A model generated the notes under the pieces. It was not told where the DNA came from, ran no database searches, and worked only from the letters and a program-made list of their open reading frames with translations. Positions 36,736 through 59,177 of a stretch of DNA of 64,000 nucleotides are shown one piece after another. Made by a program: the position numbers and the translations under genes. The stretch lies in the NCBI GenBank assembly GCA_016124755.1, contig WGNA01000007.1:1-64000 (forward strand). Reading direction: 5' to 3'. The DNA comes from Bacteroidota bacterium (GTDB lineage: Bacteria; Bacteroidota; Bacteroidia; NS11-12g; UBA9320). Position 1 is the stretch's first letter. Each line of letters begins with the position of its first letter.

Positions 36736-37217
36736 ATCACTGCGTATAAATCCTTTAAATATTTCTTGAGAAACTGACGTGCCCTGAAAATATTAATCTT
36801 CACCTGGGCTTCGGTTGTTCCTGTAATTTCCCCGATTGTGCGGTAATCGTACCCCTCGTAATCCCGAAGCATAACTGCGGTTTTCTGCGCTTCCGGTAAA
36901 TTATCGACGGCCTTTTTCACGATTTCCATCGCATCTGAGTATTGCCTTGAATGGCTGTAGTGAACCTCACTCACTTCTTCTAAAGAACCACTTCTGTTCG
37001 ACTTTCTCAGAATGTCGATACAGTTGTTGTAAGTGATCTTAAAAAGAAAAGCTTTTGCGGTGGCCATTTCAACATTTTCCTTTCTAACCCACAACTTCTC
37101 AAAGGTGTTCTGAACTACATTTTCAGCTTCGTATTCGTCTCGCAGGTGTTTTAGAGCAAACCGGAATATTCCGTCCGACAGATCAGCCACACATTGATTA
37201 TACTCTTTGGTTGTCAT
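36732..37217 (-). CDS. ECF-type RNA polymerase sigma factor
   Basis: A 161-residue sigma-70 family protein. Region 2 (FRFALKHLRDEYEAENVVQNTFEKLWVR, about 20-48) binds the core enzyme and the -10 region. Region 4 (LPEAQKTAVMLRDYEGYDYRTIGEITGTTEAQVKINIFRAR) forms the -35 helix-turn-helix. The ATG at 37217 was preferred to a TTG at 37244. Upstream on its strand, TTAATTTGC near 37246 resembles a -7 element. The gene is coupled to an anti-sigma gene and then to an outer-membrane protein gene, and its upstream region adjoins the repeat array. Confidence 0.92.
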   Translation of the reverse strand: MTTKEYNQCVADLSDGIFRFALKHLRDEYEAENVVQNTFEKLWVRKENVEMATAKAFLFKITYNNCIDILRKSNRSGSLEEVSEVHYSHSRQYSDAMEIVKKAVDNLPEAQKTAVMLRDYEGYDYRTIGEITGTTEAQVKINIFRARQFLKKYLKDLYAVI

Positions 37218-37330
37218 GAATCGCTTGTTGTACGACCTCTGCAAATTAAAGTTACAGTAAATCTAAAATTTTCTTTCACGAATATCCGAACTGTCTGTGA
37301 ATAAGACGGTTGAAAGGAGAATAAAGAACA

Positions 37331-37909
37331 GAGAACGCAAGAGCCAAGAGCGAAAGAGCGGGTTTGAAGAGTCTTATGAATGCCTCAGGAGTAACGGTAA
37401 CGGTAACAGTAACGGTAACGGTTAGTTAGTGGAGAGATGAAAGGTTCAACTGGCCAAAATTCCGATGTGTTCGGATGTGTTCAATTCTGGATTTCAAAGG
37501 CAGCTCCTCTCAAGAGCCAAGAGCGAGAGAGCGGGTTTTGATTTTAAGTGACGTGAAGAGTCTTATGAATGCCCAAGGGGTATCGGTAACTGTAACGTTA
37601 ACAGTTAGTTAGTGGAGAGATGAAAGGTTCAACTGGTCAAAATTCCGATGGGTTCGTATGGGTTCGGAGGCGTTCAATTCTGGATTTCAACTGCAGTTCC
37701 GCTCAAGAGCCAAGAGCGAGAGAGCGGGTTTTGATTTTAAGTGAAGTGCAGAGTCTCATGAATGCCCAAGGGGTATCGGTAACTGTAACGTTAACAGTTA
37801 GTTAGTGGAGAGATGAAAGGTTCAACTGGCTAAAATTCTGATGTGGATGTGTTCGTATGGGTTCAATTCTGGATTTCAACTGCAGCTCCGCTCTTTTGCT
37901 CTGCGTTCT
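37331..37909. repeat. three imperfect direct repeats of 173-193 bp, inverted ends
   Basis: The landmark GAGCCAAGAG occurs at 37341, 37514 and 37707. Each unit then contains GCGGGTTT, a TCATGAATGCC or TTATGAATGCC stretch, a short GTAAC-type array, GTTAGTTAGTGGAGAGATGA, AAAGGTTCAACTGG and GTTCAATTCTGGATTTCAA. Units 2 and 3 are the most alike. The left edge (37331-37362) reappears inverted at 37888-37909 (CCGCTCTTTTGCTCTGCGTT), so the block has imperfect inverted ends. Frames through it are interrupted or low in complexity, and it is not coding. Confidence 0.85.
37391..37420. repeat. five GTAACR hexamers in direct repeat unit 1
   Basis: Five consecutive hexamers GTAACG/GTAACA. This is the reverse complement of the large GTTACN tract at 37937-38074, so the two can pair. 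In units 2 and 3 the same place is shortened to GTAACTGTAACGTTAACAGTT, a near-palindrome. Confidence 0.85.
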
Positions 37910-37936
37910 TTCGCCCTTTCGCTCTTTACTTCTTCC

Positions 37937-38074
37937 GTTACTGCTACTGTTACCGTTACCGTTACCGTTACTGTTACCGTTACCGTTACTGTTACCGTTA
38001 CAGTTACAGTTACAGTTACAGTTACAGTTACAGTTACAGTTACAGTTACAGTTACAGTTACAGTTACAGTTACC
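37937..38074. repeat. hexanucleotide tract, 23 x GTTACN
   Basis: Twenty-three consecutive hexamers. The first ten are GTTACT, GCTACT or GTTACC, then come twelve exact GTTACA units (37997-38068) and a final GTTACC. Three degenerate units (GCTTCC, GCTTCC, GTTTCC) lead to 38092. The run of identical units suggests recent slippage. The tract ends 20 bases before the -7 element of the downstream methyltransferase gene. Confidence 0.95.
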
Positions 38075-38094
38075 GCTTCCGCTTCCGTTTCCCT

Positions 38095-38102
38095 TAATTT
38101 TG
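38095..38102 (+). promoter_or_regulatory. -7 promoter element TAATTTTG abutting a start codon
   Basis: A perfect TAnnTTTG match ending 4 bases before the ATG at 38107. Transcription would start at or next to the ATG, giving a nearly leaderless mRNA. The place for a -33 element (about 38069-38077) falls on the last hexamer and the first degenerate unit; no TTG is present there. Confidence 0.5.
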
Positions 38103-38106
38103 CATC

Positions 38107-38847
38107 ATGCAAAAGTCAGATGCCTGGTTTGAGGAGTGGTTCGACTCCCCGTTTTACCACATATTATATGGTCATCGCGACGATATGGAAGCCCGGAGAT
38201 TTATCGGCAATCTGATTGACAATCTTGCACCGGAAAAGCAAAGTCGTTTTCTCGATCTGGCTTGTGGAAAAGGAAGACATTCCCGGGTAATCCGCGATCT
38301 CGGTTTTGAAGTAGACGGAATAGATCTGAGCCAAAACAGTATTGAGGAGGCAAAAGTATATGAACACGAAGGGTTGCATTTTGCAGTTCACGACATGCGC
38401 GAAGTGTATCGTGAAAATCATTACCACTACGTTTTTAATCTCTTCACAAGCTTTGGGTACTTCTGTGAATTTTCGGATCACGAGAAAACACTCAACGCCA
38501 TCTATAAACAATTGGTCGACGGTGGTGTATTGGTGATCGACTATTTAAATTTTTCGTGGATCCAGAAAAAACTGGCGAATGGTTTTAATGATGTAATTCA
38601 TCGCCAGGGTATCGATTTTCACATTCAAAAAACACTTGATAAAGAATGTATCTCGAAATCCATCGACTTTAGAATTAACAATAAAAACTTCCATTTCGAA
38701 GAGCATGTATGGCGACTTCATCTGGCTGATTTTTATCAATTACTCACAGGATCCGGTTTTGAAATACAAACAATTTTTGGAGATTACGAGTTAAAGCCTT
38801 TCAAAGAAGACGAATCGGAGCGGTTAATCATTATCGCCACCAAATAA
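38107..38847 (+). CDS. class I SAM-dependent methyltransferase
   Basis: A 246-residue cytoplasmic methyltransferase. Motif I FLDLACGKGRHSRVI is followed by the acidic VDGIDLSQNSIEEA and the post-motif FAVHDMREVY. The N-terminal WFEEWFDSPFYHILYGHRD resembles small-molecule methyltransferases of this phylum, so DNA is an unlikely target. The substrate is not predictable. It is the first gene of a four-gene + strand run with a PAP2 phosphatase, a ZIP transporter and an M48 protease, and is preceded immediately by the hexamer tract. Confidence 0.85.
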   Translation: MQKSDAWFEEWFDSPFYHILYGHRDDMEARRFIGNLIDNLAPEKQSRFLDLACGKGRHSRVIRDLGFEVDGIDLSQNSIEEAKVYEHEGLHFAVHDMREVYRENHYHYVFNLFTSFGYFCEFSDHEKTLNAIYKQLVDGGVLVIDYLNFSWIQKKLANGFNDVIHRQGIDFHIQKTLDKECISKSIDFRINNKNFHFEEHVWRLHLADFYQLLTGSGFEIQTIFGDYELKPFKEDESERLIIIATK

Positions 38848-42558: not shown

Positions 42559-42600
42559 TTGATGAAAAAAATTAAACGAATTAAGAATTAATAAATGGAG

Positions 42601-42628
42601 AATTGGGGAATTGGGGAATTGGGGAATT
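42601..42628. repeat. octamer tract, AATTGGGG x 3.5
   Basis: Three exact AATTGGGG units and a final AATT. A lone AATTGGGG recurs at 42691-42698 between the two hairpins. Confidence 0.9.
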
Positions 42629-42629
42629 A

Positions 42630-42759
42630 CTGACGAATGCCACGAACGTTACACTTATTGAATATGATTGAAGTCAGCATTGTCAGCATAAATTGGGGAA
42701 TGTATCAACTAGAGACATCCTGGAGACGAATGCCGAAGCATTTCGATTCGGCATTGTCT
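42630..42759. repeat. two related hairpins with a conserved bulged G
   Basis: Hairpin 1: CTGAC-G-AATGC (42630-42640) pairs with GCATTGTCAG (42677-42686). Hairpin 2: AGAC-G-AATGCCGAA (42724-42737) pairs with TTCGGCATTGTCT (42747-42759). In both, the G after GAC is unpaired, and the sequence after each is similar (CATAAATT, CATGAATT). They look like two diverged copies of one small palindromic repeat. Confidence 0.6.
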
Positions 42760-42885
42760 GCATGAATTAAACTTGTTTCAGGATCTGTTGAATACATAGG
42801 GAAATTTTAGATTAAATAAATCGATACCGAGGAAGCCACCGATAGATTAGAATTTGAGAATGGAAATAAATGTGAAACACTTCAG

Positions 42886-56845: not shown

Positions 56846-57734
56846 AAAAAGAAGGAAAGAAAAGCTCATTGAGTTTTCCATTCCTGCCGATAAAAACAAA
56901 TGGCTCATTGTTTTAAAAATTGTCCTGAGTGCGATTGCACTGTTCTTTGCTATAAAGCTGGTTGGTAAATTCAGCATTCTCAATGTTCTGAAAGAAACCG
57001 ACATCGTGTTGCTGCTACTTTCTGTGGTGCTGTATATGTTGTCGCAGTTTCTTTCTTCCGAACGACTCCGGCTTTTTATGCGACGCTTCCGGGCAGGTCA
57101 TCATGTTACAAGCTTGTGGAATTTTAAGCTCTATGTGATCGGCATGTCGTACAATCTTTTTATACCAGGAGGTATTGGCGGCGATGCTTATAAAGTGGTT
57201 TTGTACGATTCAAAATTAAAAACCGGTAAACGAAAAATTATTGCCGGACTCATTTTAGACCGGGTGGTTGGATTAATCGGAATTCTGATCGGAATTGCGG
57301 CACTCGGGTTTTTCGCACCGGAATTTCATCGATATGGCGGAACCTTTTGGTTTCTCCCGGTTTTGCTCATAATCTTTCTCGCAAACCGATTAATCAGACG
57401 GGAATATCCGCGCTTTGCACCCGTATTTTTTTCTGCTCTAATGATGTCGCTGCTGGTTCAGCTTCTTCAGGTGCTGGCCTTTCTTGCCTTATTGTGGACG
57501 ACCGGACTCACCGATCACAACATGATGATGTCTGCCGTATTTCTGGTTTCTTCTGTTGCGATTATTGTCCCGGTTTTTCTGGGTGGAGTCGGTGCACGAG
57601 AAGTTCTGTTCGCCGGCCTAGCACCGCTGTTGCATTACGAAGGGCCGGATGCCGTTACCGCAGCGATTCTGTTCAGCGTAGTCGTAGTGCTCACATCACT
57701 CCCCGGATTGGTTGTTCAATGGATCGAAAAATAA
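56832..57734 (+). CDS. LPG-synthase-type (UPF0104) flippase-like membrane protein
   Basis: A 300-residue protein with about eight helices of the lysylphosphatidylglycerol synthase transmembrane family. Signatures are NLFIPGGIGGDAYKVVLY near residue 105 and VFLGGVGAREVLFAG near 255. Members are thought to act as lipid or polyprenol-phosphate transporters. The aminoacyl-transferase domain of MprF is absent. Translation starts at TTG within the end of the GT2 gene. The last 112 bases are duplicated downstream (copy 2 ends at 57896). Confidence 0.85.
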   Translation: MKRSRKRRKEKLIEFSIPADKNKWLIVLKIVLSAIALFFAIKLVGKFSILNVLKETDIVLLLLSVVLYMLSQFLSSERLRLFMRRFRAGHHVTSLWNFKLYVIGMSYNLFIPGGIGGDAYKVVLYDSKLKTGKRKIIAGLILDRVVGLIGILIGIAALGFFAPEFHRYGGTFWFLPVLLIIFLANRLIRREYPRFAPVFFSALMMSLLVQLLQVLAFLALLWTTGLTDHNMMMSAVFLVSSVAIIVPVFLGGVGAREVLFAGLAPLLHYEGPDAVTAAILFSVVVVLTSLPGLVVQWIEK

Positions 57735-57944
57735 TTATCTGAGAATTGTCTGAACCCGATCGGGTCCCTCAAAGATTACTTTGCACCGCTGTTGCAGTAC
57801 GAAGGGCCGGATGCCGTTACCGCGGCGATTCTGTTCAGCGCTGTTGTTGTGCTGACATCACTCCCCGGACTGATAGTTCAGTGGATCGAAAAATAATTAT
57901 CTGAGAATTGTCTGAACCCGATCGGGTCCTACGGAGATTACTTT
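57621..57944. repeat. 162-bp tandem duplication across a convergent gene junction
   Basis: Copy 1 (57621-57782) and copy 2 (57783-57944) are 162 bp each with about 15 differences. Each holds the 3' end of the LPG-synthase-like gene with its stop, then the 3' end of purA with its stop. Copy 1 belongs to the intact membrane-protein gene and copy 2 to the intact purA. The extra ends are remnants. Most differences in the membrane-protein part are silent or conservative (V/A, V/I). Confidence 0.92.
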
Positions 57945-59177
57945 GATCGGTGTTTTGAGTTGGTCTTCCAGCCAAAGAATATAATTCGTAAAATTCTCCG
58001 GAAGTAGATCTGCCTCCCGCACCGGACACAAATCTTCAGACCATCCTGCGCGATCTTCGTAAATAGGATCGAGATCAGTTCCCACGTAATTATATGGTAC
58101 CTGATCCGAAATTTTTCCATCGATTTTATAGGCAGTGGCTACGCGGACTTTATCGATTCCACTGAGTACATCAGACTTCATCATAATTAATTCATCCACG
58201 CCACTGAGCATCACAGCGTATTTGAGTGCAACGAGATCGAGCCAGCCACATCTGCGTGGTCGCCCGGTAGTTGCACCGAATTCGTGACCGGTAATACGTA
58301 ACTTCTCTCCCATTTCGTCGTGCAGTTCGGTTGGAAACGGTCCACCGCCAACACGTGTGCAATACGCTTTAAAAATCCCCATCACTTTGCGGATGTGTTT
58401 GGGTGCGAGTCCAAGTCCTACCGTAACACCACCGCTGATAGTATTAGAAGATGTAACATAAGGATACGATCCGAAATCAACATCGAGCATAGATCCCTGT
58501 GCTCCTTCTGCTAATATTTTTTTACCGGAATCAAGAAGTTCATGTATGAAATATTCGCTCTCTACGAACCGATACGTTTTTAGTCTTTCCACCGCTTCAT
58601 AAAATTCCTGTTCCAATGCGGCAAGACTGCTGAAATCAAAACCAAACTGGTTGAGTTGTTCGCAGTGGCGTTCGGTTACCGCGGCAACCATTTCTTTAAA
58701 ATCTGCCCGAAACATATCACCCGTTCTTATTCCCGATCTGCCGTATTTATCGCGATAAGTCGGACCAATACCGCGAAGAGTTGAGCCAATTTTTTCATCG
58801 CCCTTCATTTGTTCGGAAGCAGCGTCGAGGAGCTTATGAGTTGGCAGTATAAGATTCGCTTTTCGGGAAATATAAAGTGCGCCTTTCACATCTGCACCTG
58901 CAGCGGCGGTGCGGTCGATTTCCTCCATCAAACGAACGGGATCGATCACCACTCCGTTTCCGATCAGATTAATGCAGTCTTTGTGAAAGATGCCGCTCGG
59001 TATAGTATTGAGAACGTGTTTTACTCCGTTCATTTCTAAGCTGTGTCCGGCGTTCGGTCCGCCTTGAAACCGCGCAACAACATCGTAAGATGGCGTAAGA
59101 AAATCGGCAATTTTACCTTTCCCTTCATCGCCCCATTGCAATCCCAGGACAACATCAACATATCCTCTTTCTGACAT
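57897..59177 (-). CDS. purA: adenylosuccinate synthetase
   Basis: Makes adenylosuccinate from IMP, aspartate and GTP on the way to AMP. A 426-residue protein: VVLGLQWGDEGKGKIADFL at the N terminus with the catalytic Asp and P-loop-like GDEGKGK, GGPNAGHSL with the catalytic His, GTPTRK-like segment STLRGIGPTYRDK and the C-terminal VISVGPDRVQTILR. Length and motifs are standard. A degenerate copy of its 3' end lies just beyond its stop codon, in the tandem duplication. Confidence 0.97.
   Translation of the reverse strand: MSERGYVDVVLGLQWGDEGKGKIADFLTPSYDVVARFQGGPNAGHSLEMNGVKHVLNTIPSGIFHKDCINLIGNGVVIDPVRLMEEIDRTAAAGADVKGALYISRKANLILPTHKLLDAASEQMKGDEKIGSTLRGIGPTYRDKYGRSGIRTGDMFRADFKEMVAAVTERHCEQLNQFGFDFSSLAALEQEFYEAVERLKTYRFVESEYFIHELLDSGKKILAEGAQGSMLDVDFGSYPYVTSSNTISGGVTVGLGLAPKHIRKVMGIFKAYCTRVGGGPFPTELHDEMGEKLRITGHEFGATTGRPRRCGWLDLVALKYAVMLSGVDELIMMKSDVLSGIDKVRVATAYKIDGKISDQVPYNYVGTDLDPIYEDRAGWSEDLCPVREADLLPENFTNYILWLEDQLKTPIKVISVGPDRVQTILR

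Follow-up and report, generated by a model that had tools for sequence, protein, structure and literature searches.

The repeat block described here is one locus of a genome-wide phenomenon: its host, a Bacteroidota bacterium (GenBank assembly GCA_016124755.1), carries about fifty long arrays of a six-letter word, GTTACN, that is abundant in this genome only. On balance we consider it probable that the block belongs to a set of lineage-private, composite short-tandem-repeat arrays of the STRR/TAACTGA type which have grown by slippage and are tolerated at gene borders. The genome is a clear case in which a short repeat private to one bacterium has occupied the borders of genes; relatives have an empty site, the arrays follow a rule of polarity, and a few genes have been entered in frame. 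Two questions thereby become testable, namely by what route arrays of degenerate short words spread in Bacteroidota, and whether their position at stop codons and promoters reflects targeting or is the residue of selection.

In the window, i.e. the whole stretch of 64,000 nucleotides that was analysed, at the start of a 255,664-bp contig (WGNA01000007.1), the block lies between a divergently transcribed gene for an ECF-type sigma factor (Sigma70_r2/r4) on its left (ATG at 37217, minus strand) and a methyltransferase gene on its right (ATG at 38107, plus strand). The spacer between them (37218–38106, 889 bp) consists almost entirely of short degenerate words, namely GTAACN/GTTACN hexamers and AGAGCG-type 7/8-mers, and its repeat-filled part extends to about position 38094. 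Three tandem units on the plus strand, 173 nt (37338–37510), 193 nt (37511–37703) and 190 nt (37704–37893) in length, have a mean column identity of 89%, and TRF reports a tandem repeat at 37365–37893 with a period of 193, 2.8 copies and a score of 771. A preliminary description had proposed just such a three-unit direct repeat block without a coding frame, with a conserved order of segments per unit and with a GTAAC array collapsed to GTAACTGTAACGTTAACAG in units 2 and 3. All of this was recovered: the aligned units keep their segment order (in unit 1 AGAGC words, ATGAATGCC, the GTAACN tract, and TTAGTTAGTGG and TTCAATTCTGGATTTC segments), units 2 and 3 do contain GTAACTGTAACGTTAACAG, and the ORFs across the array are low-complexity VTVT/YSYS frames, none of them gene-like.

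The hexamer tract of unit 1 (37390–37419, minus strand) comprises five GTTACN words, read as GTAACN on the plus strand, and is directed at the sigma-factor gene, while shorter tracts of four hexamers on the same strand, with one core mismatch allowed in each hexamer, lie in unit 2 (37579–37602) and unit 3 (37772–37795). They are followed on the plus strand by GCTCT-type 7/8-mer words (37886–37926) and by a long tract of 23 GTTACN hexamers (37937–38074) that is directed at the methyltransferase gene. The block had been taken to end at 37909, with its left edge recurring in inverted form at 37888–37909. In fact it continues into the 23-hexamer tract, the earlier limits having covered its left two thirds, and the supposed inverted edge is a 26-nt, 81% match of the GCTCT words (pair 17 of 38 inverted pairs) rather than a terminal inverted repeat. 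What is genuinely inverted is the hexamer, which reads GTAACN in the left part of the block and GTTACN in the right part; the strongest of the 38 pairs joins 37390–37422 with 37958–37990 over 33 nt at 100% identity. Outside the words, a TTAAAGTTACAGTAAAT stretch near the sigma-factor gene (37246–37262, minus strand) is probably the promoter of that gene, and TAATTTTG (38095–38102, plus strand), 20 nt past the last hexamer and shortly before the methyltransferase start codon, fits TAnnTTTG, the consensus of the Bacteroidota -7 box. The only member of a known RNA family detected in the window is a single tRNA.

When the block was used as a query against the whole genome, the 193-bp unit was found once and the hexamer 60-odd times, the other loci sharing words only. 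A pattern of three GTTACN hexamers has 245 matches in 4.05 Mb, compared with 0 for the reversed-pattern control, and 240 of these matches fall inside the stretches analysed. There, 48 of 60 regions contain tracts, with 3 to 23 hexamers per tract and 953 hexamers in all, so that head-to-tail words in the range of 5–11 nt that characterises short tandem arrays are present as 152 tracts at 48 loci; some arrays are very long, with 9, 9 and 11 tracts (L010, L012 and L026). The sixth base of the hexamer is degenerate and the fourth partly so. A second word, GCTCT plus two or three free bases, recurs at a spacing of 8 (128 cases) or 7 (58 cases), and a palindrome, GATTCTTCGCNNNGCTCAGAAT, occurs 109 times when up to two mismatches are allowed, within many arrays but not in the window block. 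In the loci inspected in sequence the higher-order units are locus-specific and roughly 130–290 bp long. Arrays occur at the 5' and 3' ends of genes as well as within them, but only 5 of the 48 loci have an array within a called gene, and placement is therefore mainly non-coding.

These findings divide the earlier proposal of an undescribed repeat element that is neither a CRISPR array nor an IS, for which a genome search for the unit had been suggested and a single occurrence named as counter-evidence. A repeat it is, and the two exclusions hold: each unit adjoins the next head to tail and is conserved over its whole length, as opposed to the near-identical repeats and unique spacers of a CRISPR array, and no common unit with fixed inverted ends, as expected of a MITE or an IS, was found at several loci. 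The 193-bp unit with its "inverted ends", however, is local to this one spacer, and was abandoned as a discrete element, whereas its building block, the hexamer, is dispersed over the 48 loci.

The word is also private to the lineage. Among 57 relatives from the same family or order, which were represented by one genome per species and included no other member of the host genus, the three-hexamer pattern has at most one match per genome, and among 394 further Bacteroidota at most three. The palindrome, in turn, is shared with relatives, with 21 occurrences in G017, 5 in G002, 3 in G011 and 2 in G021, and in G017 it is embedded in tandem units of 100–190 bp together with other degenerate words, e.g., CTTCAA, GACNCAW, AGCNAAN and AATCTNN. 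The architecture is thus wider than the word, G017 having the same architecture with other words.

At the window locus an empty site is available. In three Bacteroidia/Bacteroidetes MAG contigs (L029, L030 and L031) the gene order sigma factor, methyltransferase, PAP2 and ZIP is kept, with 134 bp between the start codons of the sigma-factor and methyltransferase genes, and the array is therefore a private insertion or expansion. Sequence is kept on both sides of it, namely AAAGTTACAGTAAA at the sigma-factor gene, where the three relatives also retain the putative promoter stretch mentioned above, and an AATTTTG/AATTTG box at the methyltransferase gene. Some 755 bp have been gained in the host between the two promoters; the relatives have diverged beyond the point at which the ends of the array, and with them any target-site duplication, could be placed to the base. 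Two further candidates for empty sites were discarded: at L054 the left gene is a multi-copy cyclase with no clear ortholog, and at L016 the downstream gene and its promoter box are conserved but the upstream neighbour differs in the relatives L196 and L200.

With respect to gene borders the arrays obey a polarity rule. Wherever a locus has both orientations (15 loci), GTAAC precedes GTTAC (15 of 15, p = 6e-5), and GTTAC therefore points outward. The other 33 of the 48 loci have a single orientation; 11 of these have a called gene on either side, and in 10 of them it is the GTTAC end that lies closer to its gene, while the remaining one, L018, is due to a miscalled gene. In part this simply reflects the order of words within units, where CGCTCT precedes GTTAC. 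At 3' ends, 17 of 23 tracts with GTTAC pointing into the gene are found between positions -5 and +12 relative to the stop codon (the other six are 29 to 693 nt away, among them one at 349 nt in L018, where the gene was miscalled and its frame in fact ends at a TAA in the first hexamer), compared with 0 of 8 in the other orientation (Fisher p = 4e-4), and in several genes (at L011, at L055 on the right, at L066 and L089, and also at L018) the array itself supplies the stop codon as a TAA. Of the 22 gaps at 5' ends with GTTAC pointing into the gene, most (17) measure 7–110 nt, and the seven gaps of opposite orientation 96–492 nt. Of 35 outward ends, some of which have no called gene, 7 are followed by a strict TAnnTTTG at a distance of up to 60 nt, compared with a mean of 0.9 and a maximum of 5 in 2000 shufflings; at L016 the box following the array, TATCTTTG, is matched in position by TACCTTTG, TACTTTTG and TAACTTTG in three relatives. 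Genes were called by codon-usage scoring trained on 28 ORFs of the window, and some starts are wrong; by longest-ORF calls L009, L052 and L022 lie closer to genes. The p-values treat loci or pairs as independent, although they are dependent.

Some arrays have entered genes in frame. At L023 about 178 array-coded residues split a DcuC-type transporter (profile 61–224 and 241–458), and at L014 a DUF5682 protein contains ETVTETVTVTVTVT. A candidate entry into rho was not counted as an invasion, since NGNGNSNSNSNGNG in L017 may be native low complexity. For annotation, the arrays call for caution, as they supply stop codons, create false VTVT/YSYS ORFs and break assemblies.

According to the explanation favoured here, the pieces of an array are degenerate words in runs, i.e. 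GTTACN hexamers and CGCTCTNN 7/8-mers, joined at many other loci by a CGTC-REP-like palindrome. Short seeds of these words would have been scattered over the genome, replication slippage would have lengthened them into runs, and unequal recombination would have duplicated stretches of roughly 130–290 bp into higher-order units. Arrays might then persist where the harm is small, either between a stop codon and the next promoter or as a stop-free frame in tolerant segments of proteins, and polarity might result from selection at the edges, given that GTAACN running outward from a gene end offers TAA stops and that GTTACN running into a gene start can merge with TAnnTTTG. Several observations sit uneasily with this account. 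If slippage alone were at work, neighbouring hexamers would be expected to be copies of each other; however, in runs detected without the motif, neighbours differ at positions 1 to 6 in 8.5, 13.6, 7.2, 35.9, 6.6 and 57.8% of cases, that is, in 58% at position 6, in 36% at position 4 and in 7–14% elsewhere, and within tracts no autocorrelation of the sixth base is seen (lag-1 identity 0.396 vs 0.380 in shuffled tracts). Slippage by several hexamers at once was rejected as well, as the sixth-base identity at lags 1–4 lies inside the range of 500 within-tract shuffles. The account moreover requires seeds to have reached 48 places, and the polarity together with the abutment to stop codons might be a sign of targeted insertion instead of simple tolerance. 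The six 3' ends at which tracts do not abut the stop codon, the weak hexamer hairpin of unit 2 in the window and the uncertain copy numbers of the assembly (see below) also count against it.

An alternative hypothesis, which we regard as unlikely, assumes that the hexamers serve as binding sites for a protein of the host, which would recognise GTT.C at intervals of 6 nt in DNA or RNA, the arrays being kept as regulatory or insulating platforms. The near-fixed positions 1, 2, 3 and 5 next to the variable positions 4 and 6 would be in line with such a role, as would the outward polarity at gene borders, and the same has been proposed by MacGregor for TAACTGA repeats (PMC4679880). At first sight a comparison of homologous tract pairs points in the same direction, as the core differs in 20/1812 positions and the flanks in 337/4530, with many differences at positions 4 and 6. 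However, this contrast depends on both partners being required as tracts. When pairs are anchored by their flanks only, at 90% flank identity, core differences (293/2664) exceed flank differences (364/6660), the excess being due to a minority of pairs that are out of phase (20 of 221, with at least 6 of 12 core differences). In the 201 in-phase pairs the core positions differ at rates of 0.083, 0.025, 0.032 and 0.048, compared with 0.053 for the flanks, and positions 4 and 6 in 28% and 39%. As core and flank rates are thus about equal, selection on the core is not demonstrated, and sequence constraint on GTT.C was withdrawn as functional evidence; long-standing diversity at the fourth and sixth positions, redistributed as hexamers are gained and lost, is sufficient. 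That the arrays make no distinction between 5' ends, 3' ends and gene interiors, and that G017 builds the same architecture from several quite different words, likewise speaks against binding sites.

A more active role of the host is rather doubtful as a general explanation, but deserves mention. Here a host process would add or keep polar GTTAC hexamers at gene borders, each lineage using its own words (GTTACN, or the others in G017), by means of either a factor recognising GTT.C at 6-nt intervals or an enzyme by which arrays grow outward while the sixth base is left free (in the manner of degenerate templated repeat addition). Without such a process the lack of autocorrelation at the sixth base, the polarity in 15 of 15 loci and the abutment to stop codons are not fully explained.

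It is similarly doubtful that the arrays are MITE-like or REP-like mobile elements with the GTAAC and GTTAC runs as terminal inverted repeats, moved by a transposase such as Y1. The invariant GTAAC-first, GTTAC-last order of the two-orientation loci, the REP-like palindromes in many arrays and three Y1_Tnp genes in the genome would suit this idea, and a precedent from the same phylum exists in BrickBuilt of Porphyromonas gingivalis, a minisatellite within a MITE (Klein 2015, PMC4596501). However, BrickBuilt is described there as having one 23-nt unit with a common leader, tail and inverted ends, and although the host repeat resembles it in being species-specific, tandem, intergenic and present in multiple copies in a Bacteroidota genome, its loci share words only and have neither a common unit nor common ends; most of them, moreover, have a single orientation. 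A link to a RAYT/Y1 transposase was rejected, since at all three Y1_Tnp loci (L047–L049) the transposase gene is unflanked by the repeat, with neither the hexamer nor the REP motif within about 1.5 kb.

It is improbable that the arrays are over-grown transcription terminators, in which inverted hexamer arms past stop codons form 3' stem-loops. In favour of this are the 17 of 23 gene ends at which a tract starts no more than 12 nt after the stop codon, and the RNA hairpins predicted at adjacent GTAAC/GTTAC runs, four of which fold far better than shuffles (L022, -60.4 kcal/mol, z = -9.8; L050, z = -6.4; L066, z = -4.6; L071, z = -4.0); the hexamer hairpin of unit 2 in the window is weak (z = -1.0). 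Yet arrays also fill divergent promoter regions such as the window spacer, where no terminator is needed, they also lie inside coding frames, and the 33 single-orientation loci can form no hexamer hairpin. Under the slippage-and-tolerance explanation, the strong hairpins of inverted GTAAC/GTTAC arms are likely a side effect, which may serve as 3'-end stem-loops at some loci.

Finally, an assembly artefact is highly improbable: although several of the contigs inspected have an array at their start or end, the three units of the window are not identical to one another, tracts are found at 48 loci with distinct units wherever inspected, one array holds the reading frame through the transporter gene, and the window block is interior to its contig. 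The contig ends concerned are those of C2, C4, C11, C12, C15, C18, C21, C32 and C38, with arrays at the end or a few hundred bases from it. Copy numbers from the present assembly are therefore uncertain, and the arrays have probably caused breaks in the assembly that conceal further copies.

Tandem repeats of short degenerate words are already known from intergenic DNA, and the host arrays are of this kind. The heptamers of cyanobacterial STRRs and long simple sequence repeats are degenerate tandem words at many non-coding loci, with species-specific sets of words; Mrazek is said to have treated the long simple sequence repeats in 2007. The host words resemble both in being degenerate, tandem, non-coding, species-specific and present at many loci, but differ in lineage, period and word, in the addition of the second word and, at other loci, in the palindromes. 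The heptamer period of TAACTGA/STRR repeats proper is absent, the hexamer having a period of 6 and the second word one of 8 or 7. TAACTGA heptamers (MacGregor 2015, PMC4679880) are tandem, mostly intergenic and patchily distributed across phyla including five Bacteroidetes, some sets overlapping stop codons or lying in ORFs; long assemblages of mixed heptamers are present in some Bacteroidetes, the spacers of relatives being free of repeats. To that extent the host arrays are alike, being tandem short words that are mainly intergenic, with some at stop codons or in ORFs. Unlike the fixed word of period 7 reported there, however, they have a period of 6 with two degenerate positions, are polar, pointing outward at the 5' as well as the 3' ends of genes, form higher-order units, and run to as many as 23 hexamers mixed with a second word.

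The CGTC-tagged REPs (Di Nocera 2013, PMC3733652) are reported to have Bacteroidetes hosts, to lack a dedicated transposase, to lie inside genes in some cases and to form clusters only rarely. At other array loci of the host, palindromes resembling CGTCATGCTGAGCGAAGCGAAG and ATTCTGAGC..GCGAAGAATC begin with CGTC or have it nearby, as in these REPs; unlike them, they are parts of tandem higher-order units. In the window block there are no such palindromes, and a CGTC (TGTC/CCTC) tag on a palindrome end is likewise absent from it, while CGTCATGCTGAGCGAAGCG is found at other loci, e.g., L026. Among open-licence papers, neither the sequences of the hexamer and the palindrome nor the subject of hexanucleotide, heptamer or REP repeats in Bacteroidetes or prokaryotes led to a description of GTTAC arrays, which is weak evidence for the novelty of the word.

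Further palindromes were seen in arrays, namely GGGCAAGGCGTGCCTTGCCC in L016 and CCGCCTTCGCTAAAGCTACGGCGG in L018. The REP-like ATTCTGAGCGAAGCGAAGAAT, which occurs in the host genome and in relatives, has GCGAAGC at its centre and possible tandem G-A mismatches in its flanks; GCGAAGC is the sequence of a DNA mini-hairpin of unusual stability. The hexamer/REP array of L012 encloses a small gene for a GIY-YIG nuclease at about 1374–1688 (C18:122374–122688), and a REP-like tandem array of G017 (L156) directly adjoins the end of another GIY-YIG gene. An association with GIY-YIG genes was nevertheless dropped, as no motif was present in five stretches around other GIY-YIG hits of the host (L120–L124, one of them with two hits) or at 30 loci (L090–L119). 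Elsewhere in the window, the spacer 42559–42885 contains a tandem run of ATTGGGGA (42596–42628, about four copies, TRF score 59) 38 nt past a stop codon, which is a further word family of the host genome, and its ACTGACGAATGCC ... GTCAGCATAAATTGGGG segments recur in array L020. At 57621–57945 there is a tandem duplication with a period of 162, 2.0 copies and 90% identity.
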